This document shows positions 2,015 to 10,110 of a stretch of 10,375 nt of DNA, piece after piece (positions within the stretch are counted from its first letter, which is position 1; each line of letters begins with the position of its first letter). The position numbers and the translations under genes were made by a program. A model generated the notes under the pieces. The model was given only the letters and a program-made list of their open reading frames with translations. It was not told the DNA's origin and did not search any database. This DNA is from Oehlia diaphana (taxonomy: Eukaryota; Glomeromycota; Glomeromycetes; Glomerales; Glomeraceae): positions 17,521 through 27,895 of the forward strand of contig QZLH01001262.1 of NCBI GenBank assembly GCA_003833135.1, given 5' to 3'.

Positions 2015-2017
2015 AAC

Positions 2018-3490
2018 ATGGGATACAATGAAGAAAAAATATTTACAGAAGGATTTATCAGGAAATTTCAAGAAATAAAGAACGAATTAAAAACGTTTGT
2101 AATGGAAGAATTGGACAAATGGCTAGTTCAAGAAAGGAAAAAGGGAGAATTAAAGGACGAATCAGATAACGAAGAAGATGAAAAGGAAAAAGTAGTAACG
2201 TCAATGTATGAACATTTATCAAAAACAGAGAATGAATTAACGAAAACAGATATCAGAAGGATATTGGAGTTAGGATTTGATCGATATGAGATGATTATAG
2301 ACGGATTTGTAAGAAAATACAAATCTATAAAAGAAAAGGATGATAAAGAAGTTCACAGGGTATTGTACTCATATCTGATTAAAAGAGGAATAATTAGAAA
2401 TCTAAAAGAAGATGATACGGATGATACAGATGAATCAAATTTACAAACAACACCGGAAATAGAGATTATAGATCCAGATGAAGACAAAGAAATAGGTGAA
2501 GAAAATTTGAGTAACAATAGTGAAGAAAATGTTATAAATACACCAACTTTTGGCTCAGGTCAAAATTCAGATTCGAATAATTCAAATCTTGAAAACATAG
2601 AAATAGAAAGTGATTTATCTGATACTGAAGTACCAATAACACCAGTAATAACAATGGCAATACCACAAGAAATAAAAAGAATATTAGAGAAAGCATTTGG
2701 GTTTGCGAACAACAGTCTGGAAAATCCATTACCACCAGGAACAGATATAGCAGGACGAATTGAGAATGCAGGAAATGAAACAGGTGGAATAATCAGTCTA
2801 CCATTATTTTATGGTAAAGAAGAAGATGTTAATGATTGGATTAGACAATTTGAAATAGCATTTACGGCAATTGGAAAGAACGCAGGAAATAATGGAGTCA
2901 GACAAGCAGCATTTGCAGCAACATGTTTGAGGAGAGCAGCAGCGCAATGGTACAATGAAATGAAAGAAATCAATGCAGGGAATATAGTAAATTGGGCGGA
3001 TGCAGATAACGATGATGATCTAAAACATAGAATTAAGAGAAGATTTACCAGAGAAGATGTGAGAAGAAGGAAAATGGTCGAATTGAGAAATACTAAACAA
3101 GGAATAAACGAAAGTATCAAAGGATATACGGGAAGATTTAGGAAATTATTGAGAATAGCGACTAGAGGAGCTGCATTAGCAGAGGAATTGCAGGTAGATT
3201 TCTACATCGAAGGATTAGAACCGACAATAGCATATAATGTTAGGAGACGCAACCCAGCAAATTTGAGTGATGCGATAAATCAAGCAAGAAGAGAAGAGGA
3301 AGCAAGGAATGAACTTTTTAGGAAAACAACAGGAATGGTTAATAGGACGTATCCGGAAATAGGAAACACCAGAGTACAGGATAATGTTGGAAATCAAACA
3401 AATATATTTGCAAAACCTTTGAACGAAAATTACGAGAATGAATTGGTAGAAGCAACGGAAAAGTTGAGGATTAATAGGTTAGAAAGATAG
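2018..3490 (+). CDS. gag: Gag: helical modules, acidic linker and gypsy capsid domain
   Basis: A 490-residue ORF with ATG at 2018, one codon after the TAG. Residues 1-55 and 75-125 are two copies of the helical module (NMGY and ILELGF starts). Residues ~128-205 are an Asp/Glu/Asn/Ser-rich disordered linker. Residues ~213-435 match the Retrotrans_gag capsid family of Ty3/gypsy elements: LPLFYGKEEDVNDWIRQFE, then LRRAAAQWYNE, the R-F motif before an R-rich helix (RRRKMVELRN), QGINESIKGYTGRFRKL and FYIEGLEPTIAYNV, in the expected order. Capsid proteins assemble the virus-like particle that holds the RNA. The tail (470-490) is helical and ends at TAG 3488; the nucleocapsid continues in the same frame after it. 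Capsid identity is firm; whether this ORF is made separately is uncertain. Confidence 0.88.
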   Translation: MGYNEEKIFTEGFIRKFQEIKNELKTFVMEELDKWLVQERKKGELKDESDNEEDEKEKVVTSMYEHLSKTENELTKTDIRRILELGFDRYEMIIDGFVRKYKSIKEKDDKEVHRVLYSYLIKRGIIRNLKEDDTDDTDESNLQTTPEIEIIDPDEDKEIGEENLSNNSEENVINTPTFGSGQNSDSNNSNLENIEIESDLSDTEVPITPVITMAIPQEIKRILEKAFGFANNSLENPLPPGTDIAGRIENAGNETGGIISLPLFYGKEEDVNDWIRQFEIAFTAIGKNAGNNGVRQAAFAATCLRRAAAQWYNEMKEINAGNIVNWADADNDDDLKHRIKRRFTREDVRRRKMVELRNTKQGINESIKGYTGRFRKLLRIATRGAALAEELQVDFYIEGLEPTIAYNVRRRNPANLSDAINQARREEEARNELFRKTTGMVNRTYPEIGNTRVQDNVGNQTNIFAKPLNENYENELVEATEKLRINRLER

Positions 3491-3511
3491 CTACAAAATA
3501 TAGAAAGACAA

Positions 3512-4063
3512 ATGAATAATAGAGGAAGTAATAGGAATCAACAAAGTCGAAGAGACTATAATAGGGTACCAATCGATTATGATAAAATAACTTGTTTCAA
3601 TTGTAATAAAAGAGGTCATTATGCGACAAAATGTCCATTAAGGGACAATACTTTGGAAAATAGAAGAAGAATTAATCTAATGGACGTAGAGCAGGAAGAA
3701 TATGATTACGAAGAATACGATGAAACCAACGACGATGATGACTATGAGGATGAAGAGTATGATGATCTACAACTATATCAATATAATTATGAGTTATATG
3801 AGAAAGATAATCTGGTAACAGAAAGAAGAAGAAGTAATAGGTTAAATCCTTTAAAGGGATGGCAAACATTTGGAAAACCGAATTTAGATGAAGAGATTAT
3901 AAAAAGAGGACAAAATGAGCAGTTGAGGAGGAATGACGGACCAATGTATGACCAACCAATAAAAGTGGAAATTCCAAAGGGATATAAATATAGTAAAAGA
4001 AGAGGAGAATGGTACGACCCACTAGCAGGATTAAAAAAATGGAAGGATGAAGGAGGAAAATGA
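3512..4063 (+). CDS. Nucleocapsid-like protein with one CCHC zinc knuckle
   Basis: A 183-residue ORF in the gag frame, with ATG 21 bases after the TAG at 3488-3490. Residues 1-20 are basic (Arg/Asn-rich). CFNCNKRGHYATKC at residues 28-41 is a canonical retroviral zinc knuckle (Cys28, Cys31, His36, Cys41; CX2CX4HX4C), which binds genomic RNA during packaging. Residues 58-100 are strongly acidic with many Tyr, Asp and Glu; the rest is basic. Near the end, YSKRRGEWYD (160-169) recurs in altered form in the pol linker. In most gypsy elements the knuckle is the C-terminus of Gag, so this is best read as Gag's tail split off by a nonsense codon. The frame ends with TGA 4061-4063 and stays open for another 27 codons to TAA 4145. 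Confidence 0.85.
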   Translation: MNNRGSNRNQQSRRDYNRVPIDYDKITCFNCNKRGHYATKCPLRDNTLENRRRINLMDVEQEEYDYEEYDETNDDDDYEDEEYDDLQLYQYNYELYEKDNLVTERRRSNRLNPLKGWQTFGKPNLDEEIIKRGQNEQLRRNDGPMYDQPIKVEIPKGYKYSKRRGEWYDPLAGLKKWKDEGGK

Positions 4064-4187
4064 GGACCAAACAAGAATAAAATAAGAGGAGTACGCCCGG
4101 AAGATACAGTAAACTATGAAAATTTATTTAATATTGTAGATCAATAAGGGAAATGATAAAGAAAATGATGAAAAAAGGGAGTAAAAA

Positions 4188-4823
4188 TTGACTACACTCA
4201 GACATAAAGAAAACAGAGATAACGGAAAAGAAAGAAGTCACAACAGCAATAAAAGCACAGTAACAATAAATGATAAAGATATTGAAATGGTAATAGATTC
4301 AGGAGCGGCAATAAGTGTAATAACAGAAAAATTACGAAGAGAATTAAGGATACCAATAACAAAAAAGAGTAATATTATATGTACACTAGCAAACGGAGAA
4401 AAGATTGCATCATTAGGAAAAATTCACACAGAAATTATAATAGGAGGAATGGTAGTACCTATAACGTTAAATGTAATAGAATCAAGACAGAAAGAAATAA
4501 TTATAGGAAATGATACATTAGATGATTGGAATGCAGTCATTGATTACAAAGAAAGAACGTTAAATTTAGAGGATAATGAAGAGATAGTAAGTATACCAGT
4601 ATGGTACTTTAGAAGAATAGATAAACCTGAATTTGAGAGTGAATCAGAAACTGAAGATGAGATGGAAGAATCTAATTATGAACCAGAAAGTAAACGAAAA
4701 TTGTACACAATGAAGGAGACGAATAAGGAAAATGATTCATCAGATGAAGATCTAAGTGGGACAGATACATCTGAGAGTGATAGTGAGGATACTAGTGAGA
4801 GTGATAGAGAAAATGAGCAATAA
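4188..4823 (+). CDS. Retropepsin-like aspartic protease with acidic Ser-rich tail
   Basis: The frame opens at 4185, shifted relative to gag, and has no ATG before the protease core (the first Met is residue 34, just before the active site), so it must be made by fusion or is defective. Residues 35-45 hold the catalytic VIDSGAAISVI (Asp37-Ser-Gly-Ala). The later IIIGNDTLDDWNAVIDY (105-120) matches the second conserved hydrophobic-Gly element of gypsy proteases. The domain is about 105 residues and would act as a homodimer to cut Gag and Pol. Residues 145-211 form a Ser/Glu/Asp-rich disordered tail with SES and SDS repeats, then TAA. RT follows in the same frame, but three more stops (TGA 4824, TAA 4854, TGA 4866) lie between. 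Confidence 0.85.
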   Translation: MTTLRHKENRDNGKERSHNSNKSTVTINDKDIEMVIDSGAAISVITEKLRRELRIPITKKSNIICTLANGEKIASLGKIHTEIIIGGMVVPITLNVIESRQKEIIIGNDTLDDWNAVIDYKERTLNLEDNEEIVSIPVWYFRRIDKPEFESESETEDEMEESNYEPESKRKLYTMKETNKENDSSDEDLSGTDTSESDSEDTSESDRENEQ

Positions 4824-4880
4824 TGAGCGAAAAGATATAAAAGCAACAATAGTTAAGGGAAAGAGTGAATAAAATTAAAT

Positions 4881-6230
4881 ATGACAAATAACAAATGGGA
4901 AAAATTTGAAAAGAAATTGAACATAGAAGAAATATCAAAAGAAAGAAAGGATAGATTAAAGGACCTAATTAAAGGATATGAAATAATATTTGAATATGAT
5001 GGAGAAAAATTAGGAAGAGTAGACAAAGTAAAGCATGGCATAGAAATCAAGGGAGATCAAGAACCAATCGCACAAAAAAGATACAAAAAAACTGAAGAAA
5101 AAGGAAAGTTTATAAGAAAAGAGATTGAACAACTATTAAAAATGAAGAAGATCAGAAAATCAAAGAGTCCTTGGGCATCTCCTGTGACACTAGCGAAAAA
5201 GAAAAGTGAGAATTACAGGTTTTGTATTGACTATAGAAAATTAAATAGTGTTACCAAATCGGATGCATATCCATTACCAAGAATAGATGAACTACTAGAA
5301 AAATATAGAACCGCAAGATGGTTCACAAGTTTAGACCTAGCAGCAGGATATCATCAGGTAGAAATGATGGAAGAAGATAAGGAAAAGACAGCTTTTATAT
5401 GTTCACAAGGATTATTTGAGTATAATGTAATGCCATTTGGATTAAAGAATGCACCTGGAACATTTCAACGACTAATGGATGAGATATTGAAAGAATATAT
5501 CGAAGAATTTGTAATCGTATATTTGGATGATATAATGATTTACTCAAAGAATTTTGAAGAATACATAGAACATATCAGTAAGGTATTAGACAGATTAAAA
5601 GAAAACAATATGATCATAAAATTGAAGAAATGTCAATTTGGAAAAAGGAACATAGAATTTTTAGGGCATATAGTAGGAAGAGATGGTTTAAAACCAGATG
5701 AAAAGAAGATTGAAAAGATTAAACAAATCAAAGTACCAGAAACAGTAACACAAGTTAGATCATTCTTAGGGCTTTGTTCGTATTATAGAAGATTTATAAA
5801 AGACTTTGCAAGAATAGCAAAACCATTATATCATTTAGTAAAGAAGGAAGTACCATTTGAATGGACAGACAAACAGGGGAAAGCATTTGAGGAATTAAAG
5901 ATTAAATTAATGGAAAAACCTATACTAGATTATCCAGATCTAGGGAAAGAATTCATATTAATAACAGATGTGTCAGGAGAAGGATTAGGGGCCATACTAG
6001 CCCAGAAAAATAAAGAAAATAAGGAATTTGTTATAGCATACGCTAGCAGGAGTTTGATTGGAGCAGAAAAGAATTATCCAATAACAGAATTGGAATGCTT
6101 AGCAATATTTTGGGGAATTAAACACTTCCACAAGTTCTTAGCTGGAAGAAAATTCACGGTAGTCACAGATCATGCAGCATTGAAAGGATTAATGAATGCT
6201 AAAATACCAACCGGAAGAAGAGCAAGATGA
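4881..6230 (+). CDS. pol: Reverse transcriptase and most of RNase H
   Basis: A 449-residue ORF with ATG at 4881, the first after TGA 4866. RT landmarks: KSPWASPVTLAKKK (96-108), RFCIDYRKLN (113-122), YPLPRID (130-136), FTSLDLAAGYHQV (148-160, catalytic Asp152), MPFGLKNAPGTFQRLMD (184-200), YLDD (214-217) and FLGHIVGRDG (260-269). Residues 294-350 are the connection (RSFLGLCSYYRRFI). RNase H begins near 355 with Asp363 in TDVSGEGLGA, Glu403 in TELECLA and Asp430 in TDHAAL. It copies genomic RNA into cDNA and degrades the RNA strand. The frame is broken by TGA 6228-6230 directly after GRRAR, where the family has Trp; RNase H then resumes in the same frame, so this looks like one recent nonsense mutation. 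Confidence 0.96.
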   Translation: MTNNKWEKFEKKLNIEEISKERKDRLKDLIKGYEIIFEYDGEKLGRVDKVKHGIEIKGDQEPIAQKRYKKTEEKGKFIRKEIEQLLKMKKIRKSKSPWASPVTLAKKKSENYRFCIDYRKLNSVTKSDAYPLPRIDELLEKYRTARWFTSLDLAAGYHQVEMMEEDKEKTAFICSQGLFEYNVMPFGLKNAPGTFQRLMDEILKEYIEEFVIVYLDDIMIYSKNFEEYIEHISKVLDRLKENNMIIKLKKCQFGKRNIEFLGHIVGRDGLKPDEKKIEKIKQIKVPETVTQVRSFLGLCSYYRRFIKDFARIAKPLYHLVKKEVPFEWTDKQGKAFEELKIKLMEKPILDYPDLGKEFILITDVSGEGLGAILAQKNKENKEFVIAYASRSLIGAEKNYPITELECLAIFWGIKHFHKFLAGRKFTVVTDHAALKGLMNAKIPTGRRAR

Positions 6231-7193
6231 GTGATGGAGTTACAACAGTATGATTTTGAAGTAGTACACAGAAGTGGTAAAGAAAACAAGAATGCGGATG
6301 CATTATCACGATTAAAATTTGAGGAAAAAGATATAAAAAGGATCGAGAATAACCAAGAAAGCCAGGAATATCAAATATTAACAATGGATAATATTAAGAA
6401 ATCAAATTGGAAGAGGAAATACGTGAAGATTGAAAATATATGGTATGATTATGATAACAAGAAAGGAAGATGGGATGATTTGAAATATTTCACAAATAAA
6501 GAAGCAATATTATTGAATTTGGATAAAGAAACTGAAAATGAACTATTAAAGAGGTTAAAACGGAAGAATAAACCACAAGTTATTATAATTGATGGAGTAG
6601 ATGGAGTCGGAAAATCAACGGTAGTAGAAAGGATAATTGAACGATTAGAGAAAGACAAGCTGAGAATGGTATTTAATAAATTTAAAAGAAGAAGAGATGA
6701 TAATGAAAAGTTTAAAGAACCTTCAAAGGAATACGAATGGTTATTCAGGAAACAAGTAGTAAAAGAAATTAATAGAAGAATGGTTGAATTTACAAACGAA
6801 GATATAATAATATTAGACAAATCACCATATTGTGAATACTTTTATCAAAAGACAAAGAGCTTCGATAGAGGGTTAATAAGCCCATACAGAAATCATAAAA
6901 TGGAAAAAGAGATATTTAGATATAAGGATATCATTGATAATGCAATAGTAATTTTTCTAGAAAACAAGGAATGCTGGAATAACTATATTGGAAGAGAAAC
7001 TAAAAAGGATAATGAAGGACATAAATCATCTTACGATACATTAGATGAAGAATCTTATATGGATATGGTGAGAATGTTCAAAGAATATCAGAATGTATAC
7101 GAAGAAACAGGAAAGTATAAAAAAGTAGAAATTAGAAACGATCAGAAAAGTTGGAAAAAAGTATATAAAGAAATTAAAAAGTACCTAGAATAA
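6231..7193 (+). CDS. RNase H tail fused to a thymidylate-kinase-like P-loop domain
   Basis: Continues the RT frame after TGA 6228; an ATG at 6234 could restart it. Counting from 6231, residues 3-28 complete RNase H (ELQQYDFEVVHRSGKENK, then NADALSRL). Residues 29-115 are a charged linker. Residues ~116-320 resemble a thymidylate or deoxynucleoside kinase: IIIDGVDGVGKST carries a Walker A loop (122-130), IIILDKSPYCEYFYQ (192-206) matches the DR(S/Y)-type substrate motif with Lys197 in the Arg place, VIFLENKECW (240-249) is the typical beta-strand, and YIGRETKKDN (252-261) resembles the Arg-containing lid. About 205 residues is the usual dTMP kinase length. These enzymes phosphorylate dTMP (or nucleosides) with ATP. 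The loop, strands and lid look intact. It ends at TAA 7191, before integrase. P-loop kinase is secure; the exact substrate is not. Confidence 0.82.
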   Translation: MMELQQYDFEVVHRSGKENKNADALSRLKFEEKDIKRIENNQESQEYQILTMDNIKKSNWKRKYVKIENIWYDYDNKKGRWDDLKYFTNKEAILLNLDKETENELLKRLKRKNKPQVIIIDGVDGVGKSTVVERIIERLEKDKLRMVFNKFKRRRDDNEKFKEPSKEYEWLFRKQVVKEINRRMVEFTNEDIIILDKSPYCEYFYQKTKSFDRGLISPYRNHKMEKEIFRYKDIIDNAIVIFLENKECWNNYIGRETKKDNEGHKSSYDTLDEESYMDMVRMFKEYQNVYEETGKYKKVEIRNDQKSWKKVYKEIKKYLE

Positions 7194-7198
7194 ATAAA

Positions 7199-7453
7199 AT
7201 GGAGTGGGTAATAAAATCAACAAATTCAAGAATAGGAATATTAATTAAAGAACTGGAGGAAATTCAAGAAGAAATTATTGAAATAAGGAATGAAAATAGG
7301 AGATTAGGAAAAACGGGGATTGATGATTGGAATAAAAAGGAGGAATCATTAATTAAAGAAATTCAAGAAGAAATAGTAAATATAGAAATAGTTTTAAGTA
7401 AAACAGAGATACGAAAGAAAATAATATGGAAGAAAATGAATATAAGCGAATAA
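7199..7453 (+). CDS. Small coiled-coil protein between kinase and integrase
   Basis: An 84-residue ORF starting with ATG 5 bases after the kinase stop, in a different frame. Its Glu/Ile/Lys content and heptad-like spacing (IKELEEIQEEIIEIRNENRR) predict a coiled coil. It holds an internal duplication: the exact 17-mer GAAATTCAAGAAGAAAT is at 7259-7275 and 7358-7374, 99 bases apart, encoding EIQEEI in both places. Its last 28 bases overlap the integrase ORF. I recognise no family. It could be a real accessory product, a spacer peptide, or the remains of the kinase-integrase junction after a frameshift. Confidence 0.4.
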   Translation: MEWVIKSTNSRIGILIKELEEIQEEIIEIRNENRRLGKTGIDDWNKKEESLIKEIQEEIVNIEIVLSKTEIRKKIIWKKMNISE

Positions 7454-7860
7454 TAGGGAACATCGATAAAGAGAAATTATACGAGAAAAGAGAAGGATTA
7501 CTATACAGAATAAAAGGCGAGAAAAGATTAAGAGTGATTAGAAAATATGAATATGAGGGATTTATGTATATGATGCATGACAATGAATTGTCAGGACATT
7601 TTGGAATTGAAGCAACAATAGAAAGAGTAAAAGAAAAGTATTATTGGAAAAATATGCGAAGAGATATTGAACAATATGTAAAATCATGTTGGGAGTGTCA
7701 AATGAGAGGAAAACCTCAAGGAGAAAATAGATTACAACCAATACGAGTAGGGGAACCATTTGAAACAATGGGAATAGATATAGTAGGACCATTAAAAGAA
7801 ACCGTAAGAGGGAATAAATATATTATAGTACATCAGGAAATTTTTACAGGTGATATATAG
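7426..7860 (+). pseudogene. Integrase, N-terminal part only (HHCC finger and first catalytic Asp)
   Basis: A 144-residue ORF in a third frame, open from 7402 with ATG 7426. Residues 24-31 (EGLLYRIK) and the HHCC finger (His51, His58, Cys88, Cys91; 29 residues between His58 and Cys88) match gypsy integrases, as does YYWKNMRRDIEQYVKSCWEC. The core starts with PFETMGIDIVGPLKET, where Asp117 is the first of the catalytic D,D,E triad, then GNKYIIV. Similarity runs to about residue 141 (the FT of the family's DxFT motif; Glu138 sits where Asp is usual) and stops at base ~7849, where a palindromic AT-rich sequence begins. The second Asp, the Glu and the C-terminal domain are missing from the window, so this copy cannot make active integrase. 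Confidence 0.9.
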
Positions 7861-7955
7861 CGATATATATCACTTTATCGATACATATCCCATTATTTAT
7901 AAAATGTGATATATATCGATAATAATCACACTCGTCGATTATTAACGATGTGATT
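7850..7955. repeat. Nested palindromes at the integrase breakpoint
   Basis: A near-perfect 24-bp palindrome at 7850-7873 (GTGATATATAG / CGATATATATCAC) begins exactly where integrase similarity ends. A second GTGATATATATCGAT starts at 7906 and pairs with ATCAC at 7925-7929. A third inverted pair is at 7924-7935 and 7945-7955 (AATCACA..TCGT / ACGATGTGATT). The shared GTGATATAT word suggests the end of another mobile element or a self-similar AT-rich repeat; which one is unknown. Confidence 0.7.
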
Positions 7956-9092: not shown

Positions 9093-9268
9093 ATGCCTAA
9101 AAAAAGGGAAAGGGAGGAAGAGAGAAGGAGCAAAGAGAAAGGAAGACGAGAAAGAGAGGGATATGGGAAAAAAGGAAAGAAAGGGAGGGAAAAAACGAAA
9201 AAGGGGAAGGGGAAAAACGAAAGAAAGGGAATGAAAAGGAAAAGGAAAAGGGAAATTTACGAAAAAAA
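9093..9268 (+). repeat. Purine-only low-complexity tract
   Basis: The plus strand is almost entirely G and A for about 170 bases, with runs such as GGGAAAGGGAGG. The Lys/Arg/Glu-rich open frame across it (9093-9296) is a by-product of this composition, not a credible gene. Such homopurine tracts can form triplex DNA, though nothing here shows that. Confidence 0.75.
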
Positions 9269-9282
9269 GTTTAAGCTTAAAC
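9269..9282. repeat. Perfect 14-bp palindrome
   Basis: GTTTAAGCTTAAAC reads the same on both strands. A near-palindrome (AAAGGCTTAAGCTTT) follows at 9288-9302. They close the purine tract; no function is evident. Confidence 0.6.
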
Positions 9283-9330
9283 TAAAAAAGGCTTAAGCTT
9301 TAAAAAACAGAAAAAATGAAATGAAATGAA

Positions 9331-9630
9331 AGGTAAAAATGAAAAAAAAGAAAAGGGAAAGCGTAAAAAGGGGTGAAGTGGGTGAAAGGGAAAGTGTAAA
9401 AGAAAGATAGGTGAAGGGGGAAGGAAAAAAAAGGGTAGAAGAATGTGAATGGGAAAGGGCGAAAGTAATGTTTAATTAAGCTTTTAAAAAAAGTTTAAAA
9501 AAATAAACTTATCGTGCCGCGTTTTAGTAGTTAATCAATGGAAAGTTGTATTACATGATATGATACACGTGATTGTTAAATAGCCTCGTAGTAACTTATT
9601 TTTAATTAATTATAATATCATGTTACACTA
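9331..9630 (+). repeat. ~300-bp repeat, copy 1
   Basis: Matches 9821-10110 throughout with moderate divergence. Shared landmarks in order: AGGTRAAAAT, AAAGCGTAAAAA, GGTGAAGTGGGTGAA, GGGTAGAAGA, GTTTAAAAAAAT, ACTTATCGT, GTGATTGTTAAATA, TATAATATCATGT. The purine-rich first half is followed by a mixed half. An inverted pair (9547-9564 and 9610-9627, around ACATGATAT / ATATCATGT) closes the unit. It may be an old satellite monomer or a small non-autonomous element. Confidence 0.8.
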
Positions 9631-9680
9631 ACAATGGAGTAATGGAAAGTAATAGAGGAAACAAAAAGGAGAAATAGGAC

Positions 9681-9820
9681 ATGATGAGAGACGAAAAGAA
9701 GTGATGAGAGACAAAAGGGAGTGATGGAAGACGAAAAGAAGTAATGGAGACGAAAAGAAATGATGGGAAAATGAAGGGGAGTGATGGAAGACGAAAAGAA
9801 ATGATGGGAAGATGAAGAGA
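9681..9820 (+). repeat. 20-bp minisatellite, seven copies
   Basis: Seven units of 19-21 bases fill exactly 140 bases, starting at 9681, 9701, 9721, 9741, 9760, 9781 and 9801. The common form is GTGATGGAAGACGAAAAGAA, with variants. It lies between the two ~300-bp repeat copies and is purine-rich on the plus strand. Confidence 0.85.
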
Positions 9821-10110
9821 AGGTGAAAATGAAAGAAAAAGAAAAAAGAAAGCGTAAAAAAGGTGAAGTGGGTGAAGGGAAAGTGTGAAAGAGACGGGTG
9901 AGAGGGGAAGGAAAAAGAAGGGTAGAAGAGTGTAAATGGGGATGGGCGAAGGAAATGGTTAATTAGACTAAAAAAAAAAGTTTAAAAAAATGAACTTATC
10001 GTCGCGTCTTAGCAGTTTAACTAACGGAAAGTCGTGTCACATGATATAATGAATGTGATTGTTAAATAATCTCGTAAGTCGTAACTTAATTATAATATCA
10101 TGTAACATAA
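9821..10110 (+). repeat. ~300-bp repeat, copy 2
   Basis: The second copy of the unit at 9331-9630, offset by 490 bases at the start. It keeps the terminal inverted pair (10036-10050 and 10091-10106, CACATGATAT / ATATCATGTAAC). Differences from copy 1 are mostly substitutions and short A-run length changes. Confidence 0.8.

Follow-up and report, generated by a model that had tools for sequence, protein, structure and literature searches.

A predicted nucleotide-kinase domain in the Pol of a broken Ty3/gypsy retrotransposon copy from Oehlia diaphana

To our knowledge, dUTPase is the known nucleotide-pool enzyme of retroviruses and long terminal repeat (LTR) elements, and the fold and reaction of the retroviral enzyme are unrelated to those of a P-loop kinase. 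dUTPase domains have been described in fungal Ty3/gypsy elements (PosPlaTy3 of Postia placenta, and elements of Phanerochaete chrysosporium and Tuber melanosporum) and in LTR elements of bdelloid rotifers, according to the main texts of PMC2864245 and PMC5408684, in neither of which the word "kinase" occurs. These texts also state that retroviral dut can sit between reverse transcriptase (RT) and integrase (PMC5408684), and propose that dUTPase benefits viruses in non-dividing cells (PMC2864245). Here we describe a 10,375-nucleotide stretch of the genome of the glomeromycete Oehlia diaphana (contig QZLH01001262.1, positions 17,521 to 27,895, forward strand; "the window" below means this whole stretch), which contains a Ty3/gypsy element with a kinase-like domain between RNase H and integrase. 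The element is like the dUTPase-bearing gypsy and rotifer elements in that a gypsy-type element appears to have captured a nucleotide-metabolism domain, but in those, as far as the two texts describe them, dUTPase lies at either terminus of Pol or separates protease from RT. With the dUTPases of vertebrate retroviruses, as described there, it shares the region of Pol and the presence of a putative nucleotide-pool enzyme. Nucleotide enzymes in gypsy Pol were thus already known in the form of dUTPase, and what is new here is a predicted P-loop kinase in the Pol of an LTR element. Among the papers listed by searches of the open PubMed Central literature, none describes an LTR element that carries a kinase, and in the available text of two papers on transposable elements of Rhizophagus irregularis (PMC8647823, PMC11075540) "kinase" is mentioned just for expanded or high-copy gene families.

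We lean, with modest confidence, towards reading the window element as a broken copy of a Ty3/gypsy lineage, known from arbuscular mycorrhizal fungi, carrying a predicted (deoxy)nucleoside monophosphate ((d)NMP) kinase of the thymidylate kinase/deoxynucleoside kinase (dNK) superfamily, which would probably raise the local supply of DNA precursors. The element is assigned to Ty3/gypsy by its order of gag, aspartic protease, RT, RNase H and integrase (Pfam domains). Its kinase-like domain follows the end of RNase H in an open reading frame (ORF) of 320 residues, stop to stop, with RT/RNase H directly upstream in the same frame and the H2C2 zinc domain of integrase downstream. A preliminary description, made from the letters of the window, had placed a kinase of about 205 residues between RNase H and integrase of a gypsy Pol, in a frame running open from the RNase H end through GVDGVGKST, DKSPYCEYFYQ and YIGRETKKDN. 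Frame, motifs and position are all seen in the ORF, and the domain itself is real; its extent is refined here, as the conserved unit begins near 6405 and its first 56 or so residues form an N-terminal extension, found in many relatives and missing from P0017. The features concerned are listed below, with E-values for Pfam families; residue numbers throughout (Lys92, F114, V118, K139, E144, R197, E198) count from 6405.

4869..6230, + strand, RT and most of RNase H, to an in-frame TGA (RVT_1 E 1.9e-42, RT_RNaseH_2 2e-34, RT_RNaseH 1.7e-31)
6231..6329, + strand, C-terminal end of RNase H (to NADALSRL), in the kinase frame (ORF 6231-7193; matched in other copies)
6405..6572, + strand, N-terminal extension of the kinase unit (alignments; strands and short helices in the structure model)
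6573..7193, + strand, P-loop nucleotide-kinase-like domain (profile, fold and homologue evidence)
6594..6620, + strand, Walker A GVDGVGKST (sequence; conserved in the family)
6684..6695, + strand, basic KRRR motif after the second core strand (conservation in database rows; hhalign placement)
6816..6848, + strand, DKSPYCEYFYQ segment, counterpart of the thymidylate kinase DR(Y/F/S)xxSxxAYQ segment (hhalign placement)
6993..6998, + strand, RE of the lid (R197, E198; conserved in database rows)
7402..7860, + strand, integrase ORF, H2C2 zinc domain only (Integrase_H2C2 E 1.3e-21)

The kinase-like domain is more than a chance match, but the window sequence by itself scores weakly. Thymidylate_kin matches positions 6405-7190 at E 2e-5 and 24.8 bits, under the Pfam cut-off of 27; on the longer window ORF it reaches E 2.9e-4, with NB-ARC narrowly better (1.2e-4), and among NCBIfam models PRK08233 (9.8e-7, far below its own cut-off) is ahead of dTMP kinase (1.5e-4). 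The profile search proposed in the preliminary description finds its nucleotide-kinase match in the family: Thymidylate_kin is found at E <= 1e-3 in 30 of 32 members (best 8.5e-8), and the R. irregularis relative P0009, at 30.2 bits, lies above the Pfam cut-off. At the same threshold Pfam dNK is found in two of the 32 (best 1.6e-4), the window not among them. Profile scores, and the fold scores of a structure model, tie between thymidylate kinase and dNK, and the top Foldseek match of the model is a Giardia deoxyadenosine kinase (E 2.2e-6). Sequence matches in the PDB to FtsY and adenylate kinase are carried by the P-loop, and the naming of the domain makes no use of them.

The domain is not confined to this copy. 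A copy search, named beforehand as a test, was made in the genome (108.8 Mb in 1672 contigs; C-numbers denote places or copies on its contigs), where tblastn with the kinase gave 23 matches, corresponding to 15 element places and one host-like dNK ORF (C37). At C2 (147610-157008) two complementary kinase pieces lie about 9 kb apart and are probably one copy split by an insertion, and we therefore count about 14 copies. RT/RNase H lies upstream in 10 of the 14, integrase downstream in 13, and both in nine; in the remaining five, either one flank was not detected within about 1.5 kb of sequence or the contig ends (C455). Protein searches returned 38, 71 and 97 hits, amounting to 135 different proteins. 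Of these, 62 are named to organism, each being from R. irregularis, R. clarus, R. diaphanus or Glomus cerebriforme, and 73 are unnamed or metagenomic; R. irregularis and G. cerebriforme belong to Glomeraceae. With some 14 genome copies and many proteins from four named species, a private insertion in one copy was rejected.

The relatives include uninterrupted RT-RNase H-kinase proteins of 745-770 residues as well as kinase-integrase proteins. In the window, in C1483 and in the R. irregularis proteins of about 770 residues, kinase and RT-RNase H are fused. In C436 the kinase forms a separate ORF with its own ATG, outside the RT frame and overlapped at its end by the integrase ORF, a layout that fits seven metagenome proteins of 264-267 residues with near-identical starts (P0051-P0054, P0056, P0058, P0060). 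Another metagenome protein, P0110 (393 residues), combines in one chain a NUDIX domain (E 2.4e-5) and a kinase that shares 41% identity with that of the element, possibly a second nucleotide-pool combination. In IMG/VR viral contigs no relatives were confirmed from the family alignment (42 pattern matches) or from P0110 (three pattern matches). Against phages, tblastn with P0061 returned 10 records, annotated as thymidylate kinase (seven), FtsY (two) and hypothetical protein (one), of which one has E < 1e-3 (thymidylate kinase of Vibrio phage sm033, 2e-4); with P0110 it returned seven, none under E 0.1. The phage searches thus point to no near source of the element kinase.

Conservation extends beyond the residues expected of the fold, as the catalytic motifs are near-invariant across proteins 50-77% identical to the window kinase. 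The P-loop GxxxxGK(S/T) is present, the D-R motif of thymidylate kinases reads D-K in 117 of 118 database rows, and the lid keeps its Arg in 110 and its Glu in 108 of 111. The four positions of KRRR are conserved in 112/112, 105/112, 108/113 and 109/113 rows; by hhalign the motif falls at or next to the F-P place of thymidylate kinases and the Glu place of dNKs, and none of the ten thymidylate kinases aligned (nine from phages, one from the host) is as basic there. Among database rows covering all key sites, 69 of 82 have every one intact. The element kinase would presumably be an active enzyme.

To compare the base pocket, residue numbers of the M. tuberculosis thymidylate kinase (TMPK) were mapped via phage and host sequences (hhalign) and motif positions. 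According to the available text of PMC3619541, thymine in this enzyme stacks against Phe70 and forms hydrogen bonds with Arg74 and Asn100, and both the ring and the phosphate are contacted by Arg95; human TMPK has Gly at the Asn100 place. On the alignment, the element family retains the Phe70 counterpart (F114, 113/115 rows) and has Lys for Arg95 (K139, 117/118), Val for the thymine-binding Arg74 (V118, 109/114 database rows, hhalign via phage sequences) and a near-invariant Glu for Asn100 (E144, 114/117). The domain is like thymidylate kinase (PF02223) in its P-loop, its fold over 183 residues and its D-(R/K)...Y-Q segment, nearest by eye to those of two Vibrio phage enzymes (DRSAYSGLAYQ, DRSYFSGAAYQ), and differs in its DK for DR, its Val for the thymine Arg and its Glu at the Asn100 place. 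The preliminary description had proposed dTMP specificity from motif likeness; this is not supported, since the scores tie with dNK and two thymine-binding residues are replaced on the alignment mapping; the pocket residues do not favour dTMP and speak against plain dTMP specificity. In dNKs the Glu after the second strand has a catalytic role. Invariant in an alignment of four dNKs, it corresponds to Lys92 in the window and to Thr in many relatives, so that the element kinase differs at this place from the PF01712 enzymes (dCK, dGK, Drosophila dNK). Because the element kinase lacks this Glu and has KRRR just after its place, a phosphorylated substrate is favoured, and we infer that the enzyme would act on a monophosphate rather than on a nucleoside.

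The ratio of nonsynonymous to synonymous substitution rates (dN/dS) was estimated by the Nei-Gojobori method between own-genome copies, using pairs of 100 or more codons whose dS is < 1.5 (47 of 91 pairs for the kinase, 53 of 66 for RT). It ranges from 0.09 to 0.48 in the kinase (highest upper bootstrap bound 0.75) and from 0.05 to 0.51 in RT (0.83). Within the same pairs, kinase and RT give 0.17 versus 0.07 (C1193-C422), 0.12 versus 0.08 (C1193-C1483), 0.14 versus 0.17 (C1193-C307) and 0.29 versus 0.33 (C1483-C307). This shows long purifying selection on the kinase family. Because pairs share branches, copies are partly dead and dS is often above 1, the ratios speak for the family and say nothing on the present state of a single copy. 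The window copy is in fact a non-working element, because its RNase H is interrupted by an in-frame TGA at 6228-6230, just 5' of the open stretch, and its integrase is broken, ending abruptly near 7836 where other copies extend into rve (the integrase core is present in C1483 and C436); the copy is cut at its 3' side. The preliminary description had taken the intact motifs as a hint that the domain was kept for use in this copy, a view that is not borne out, as this copy is broken; what speaks for use is the family.

In an unrooted tree of RT/RNase H (46 rows, drawing on the best 30 of 73 RT matches), six kinase-free own-genome copies (C1225, C354, C513, C1492, C1634, C168) form one outside clade with support 92/97. 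In four of them (C354, C1225, C1634, C168) integrase begins about 80-160 nt past RNase H; for C513 and C1492 it was not found within the stretch examined. RNase H followed by integrase is the usual order in gypsy elements, so it is more probable that the kinase lineage gained the domain than that the other lineage lost it, and a single capture by an ancestor would account for the distribution. Six further cases were not counted as evidence of ancestral absence. C17 is read as a deletion, because its first codons resemble the kinase start of P0017 (EDQPEIVIID) by eye and then jump into integrase, a remnant undetected by tblastn with the window kinase; C165 has no kinase match, a long branch and a gap of about 790 nt without match between RNase H and integrase; the truncated P0038, scored as kinase-free by the length cut-off, holds 60 kinase residues; and C101, C500 and C739, without a kinase match, are off the tree with fewer than 221 RT residues covered, the RT match of C101 stopping early.

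Across 28 rows the kinase distances agree with those of RT (Mantel r 0.71; none of 2000 permutations as high). The exception is formed by P0012, P0014 and P0035 of R. irregularis, which have an RT of the P0003/P0004 type (85-89%). Their kinase residues 1-62 are nearer that type (72-77% in P0012 and P0035, 53-56% in P0014), and residues 63-262 are of the P0017 type (91-93% versus 63-66%; only 70 columns in P0035). Given correct gene models, the elements apparently recombine near the edge of the catalytic core (about kinase residue 63) and keep the core whole.

Several observations weigh against the reading as a (d)NMP kinase kept for use. The window copy is dead, just three of the seven own-genome rows covering all key sites are intact throughout (C1193, C422, C436), and C17 has lost most of its kinase by deletion, together with part of its integrase. 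The dN/dS values are pairwise and include partly broken copies with shared branches and many dS > 1, and the single gain depends on the support of 92/97 in an unrooted tree from the best 30 of 73 RT matches. Other P-loop families also match many members (KTI12 21/32, NPHP3_N 19/32, AAA_14 18/32), and profile comparison by hhalign is undecided between thymidylate kinase (E 2e-10, 190 columns) and dNK (4.5e-11, 154 columns). This tie, with the Giardia enzyme as top fold match, would suit a dNK that converts nucleosides to monophosphates, which we nevertheless think distinctly unlikely given how few members match Pfam dNK and the Lys or Thr before KRRR at the dNK Glu place. Slightly less unlikely, though still doubtful, is a changed substrate, such as nucleic-acid ends (as for a polynucleotide kinase), a tRNA primer or another small molecule, with the domain aiding reverse transcription or integration at some step other than nucleotide supply. 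The replaced thymine-pocket residues, the unusually basic KRRR and the position between two nucleic-acid enzymes fit this idea, but the best profile and fold families are nucleotide and nucleoside kinases, and AAA_33, which we take to be the family containing polynucleotide kinases, matches the window ORF at E 0.0028 only, over the P-loop part. No polynucleotide kinase is among the 50 VIA matches listed, which excludes nothing. A bolder extension, possible but tentative, is that the family is a P-loop kinase branch found only in retrotransposons, with a pocket shifted off thymine (E144 could read cytosine or guanine), a core swapped between lineages, and a role as an in-particle transposition factor enabling reverse transcription in non-dividing multinucleate hyphae or spores.

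It is also conceivable that the domain was captured once and travels along without catalytic use, or is merely a spacer or structural part of Pol, as the broken state of the window copy and most own-genome copies and the deletion in C17 might suggest. This is improbable in view of the near-invariant catalytic motifs, a kinase dN/dS similar to that of RT, and the open kinase frame retained in the apparent recombinants. We give hardly any credence to a recent copy of a host thymidylate kinase or dNK gene in the element, even though profile search finds one gene of each kind in the genome. The host thymidylate kinase (C598), the only PF02223 match among nine candidates scored, has introns as we read it and the standard pocket (DRYAYSG, FSANRW), and the element kinase shares 26-29% identity with the host dNK ORF and is by profile about equally far from both families; a recent host copy was rejected on these grounds. 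No close host paralogue turned up in the protein searches with the kinase. As for the dNK ORF at C37:74038-74655, it is single-copy, 336 residues long, with a full dNK domain (Pfam dNK E 9.8e-31; one PF01712 place) and no RT match in the surrounding 3.5 kb, and appears to be a host or acquired dNK.

The remaining features of the window are as follows.

2015..3487, + strand, Retrotrans_gag-like ORF (Pfam Retrotrans_gag E 6.6e-10, Ty3_capsid 7.3e-7)
3491..4060, + strand, ORF with gag CCHC zinc knuckle (zf-CCHC E 1.8e-5)
4185..4823, + strand, aspartic protease ORF (gag-asp_proteas E 1.8e-13)
7200..7453, + strand, small ORF of 84 residues from ATG, judged coiled-coil-like by eye (C455 and C347 have it too)

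The small ORF is 89% identical in C455 and 54-59% in C347, and was not found in C422. Two ORFs 5' of gag at 641-1801 (211 and 174 residues), with no Pfam match above cut-off, make up an extra 5' region of the element. An inverted repeat at 7850-7929 (27-nt arms, 81% complementary) lies exactly at the integrase breakpoint and is perhaps the edge of another insertion, and purine-rich repeats at 9177-10002 include two 111-nt copies 487 bases apart. Nine window ORFs were compared with Pfam, and the families listed for them include no dUTPase.

On the reading we prefer, of a kinase probably acting on (d)NMPs, an intact element would produce RT, RNase H and kinase together, and the kinase would raise the supply of deoxynucleoside di- and triphosphates (dNDP and dNTP) where element RNA is copied, a role akin to that proposed for dUTPase in the viruses that carry it. 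The benefit may arise in fungal compartments with low dNTP pools, by analogy with the proposal for retroviral dUTPase; such a nucleotide-supply role, already suggested in the preliminary description, is a reasonable one to assume. Database entries from Rhizophagus that are labelled "unnamed protein product", "thymidylate kinase-like" or "enzymatic polyprotein" are accounted for by this family, and caution is needed before they are read as host nucleotide metabolism. If a kinase has been retained in Pol throughout a fungal family, this would point to dNTP supply, beyond the exclusion of uracil, as a possible limit on reverse transcription in a host, and the element kinase offers a directly testable case of such a limit.
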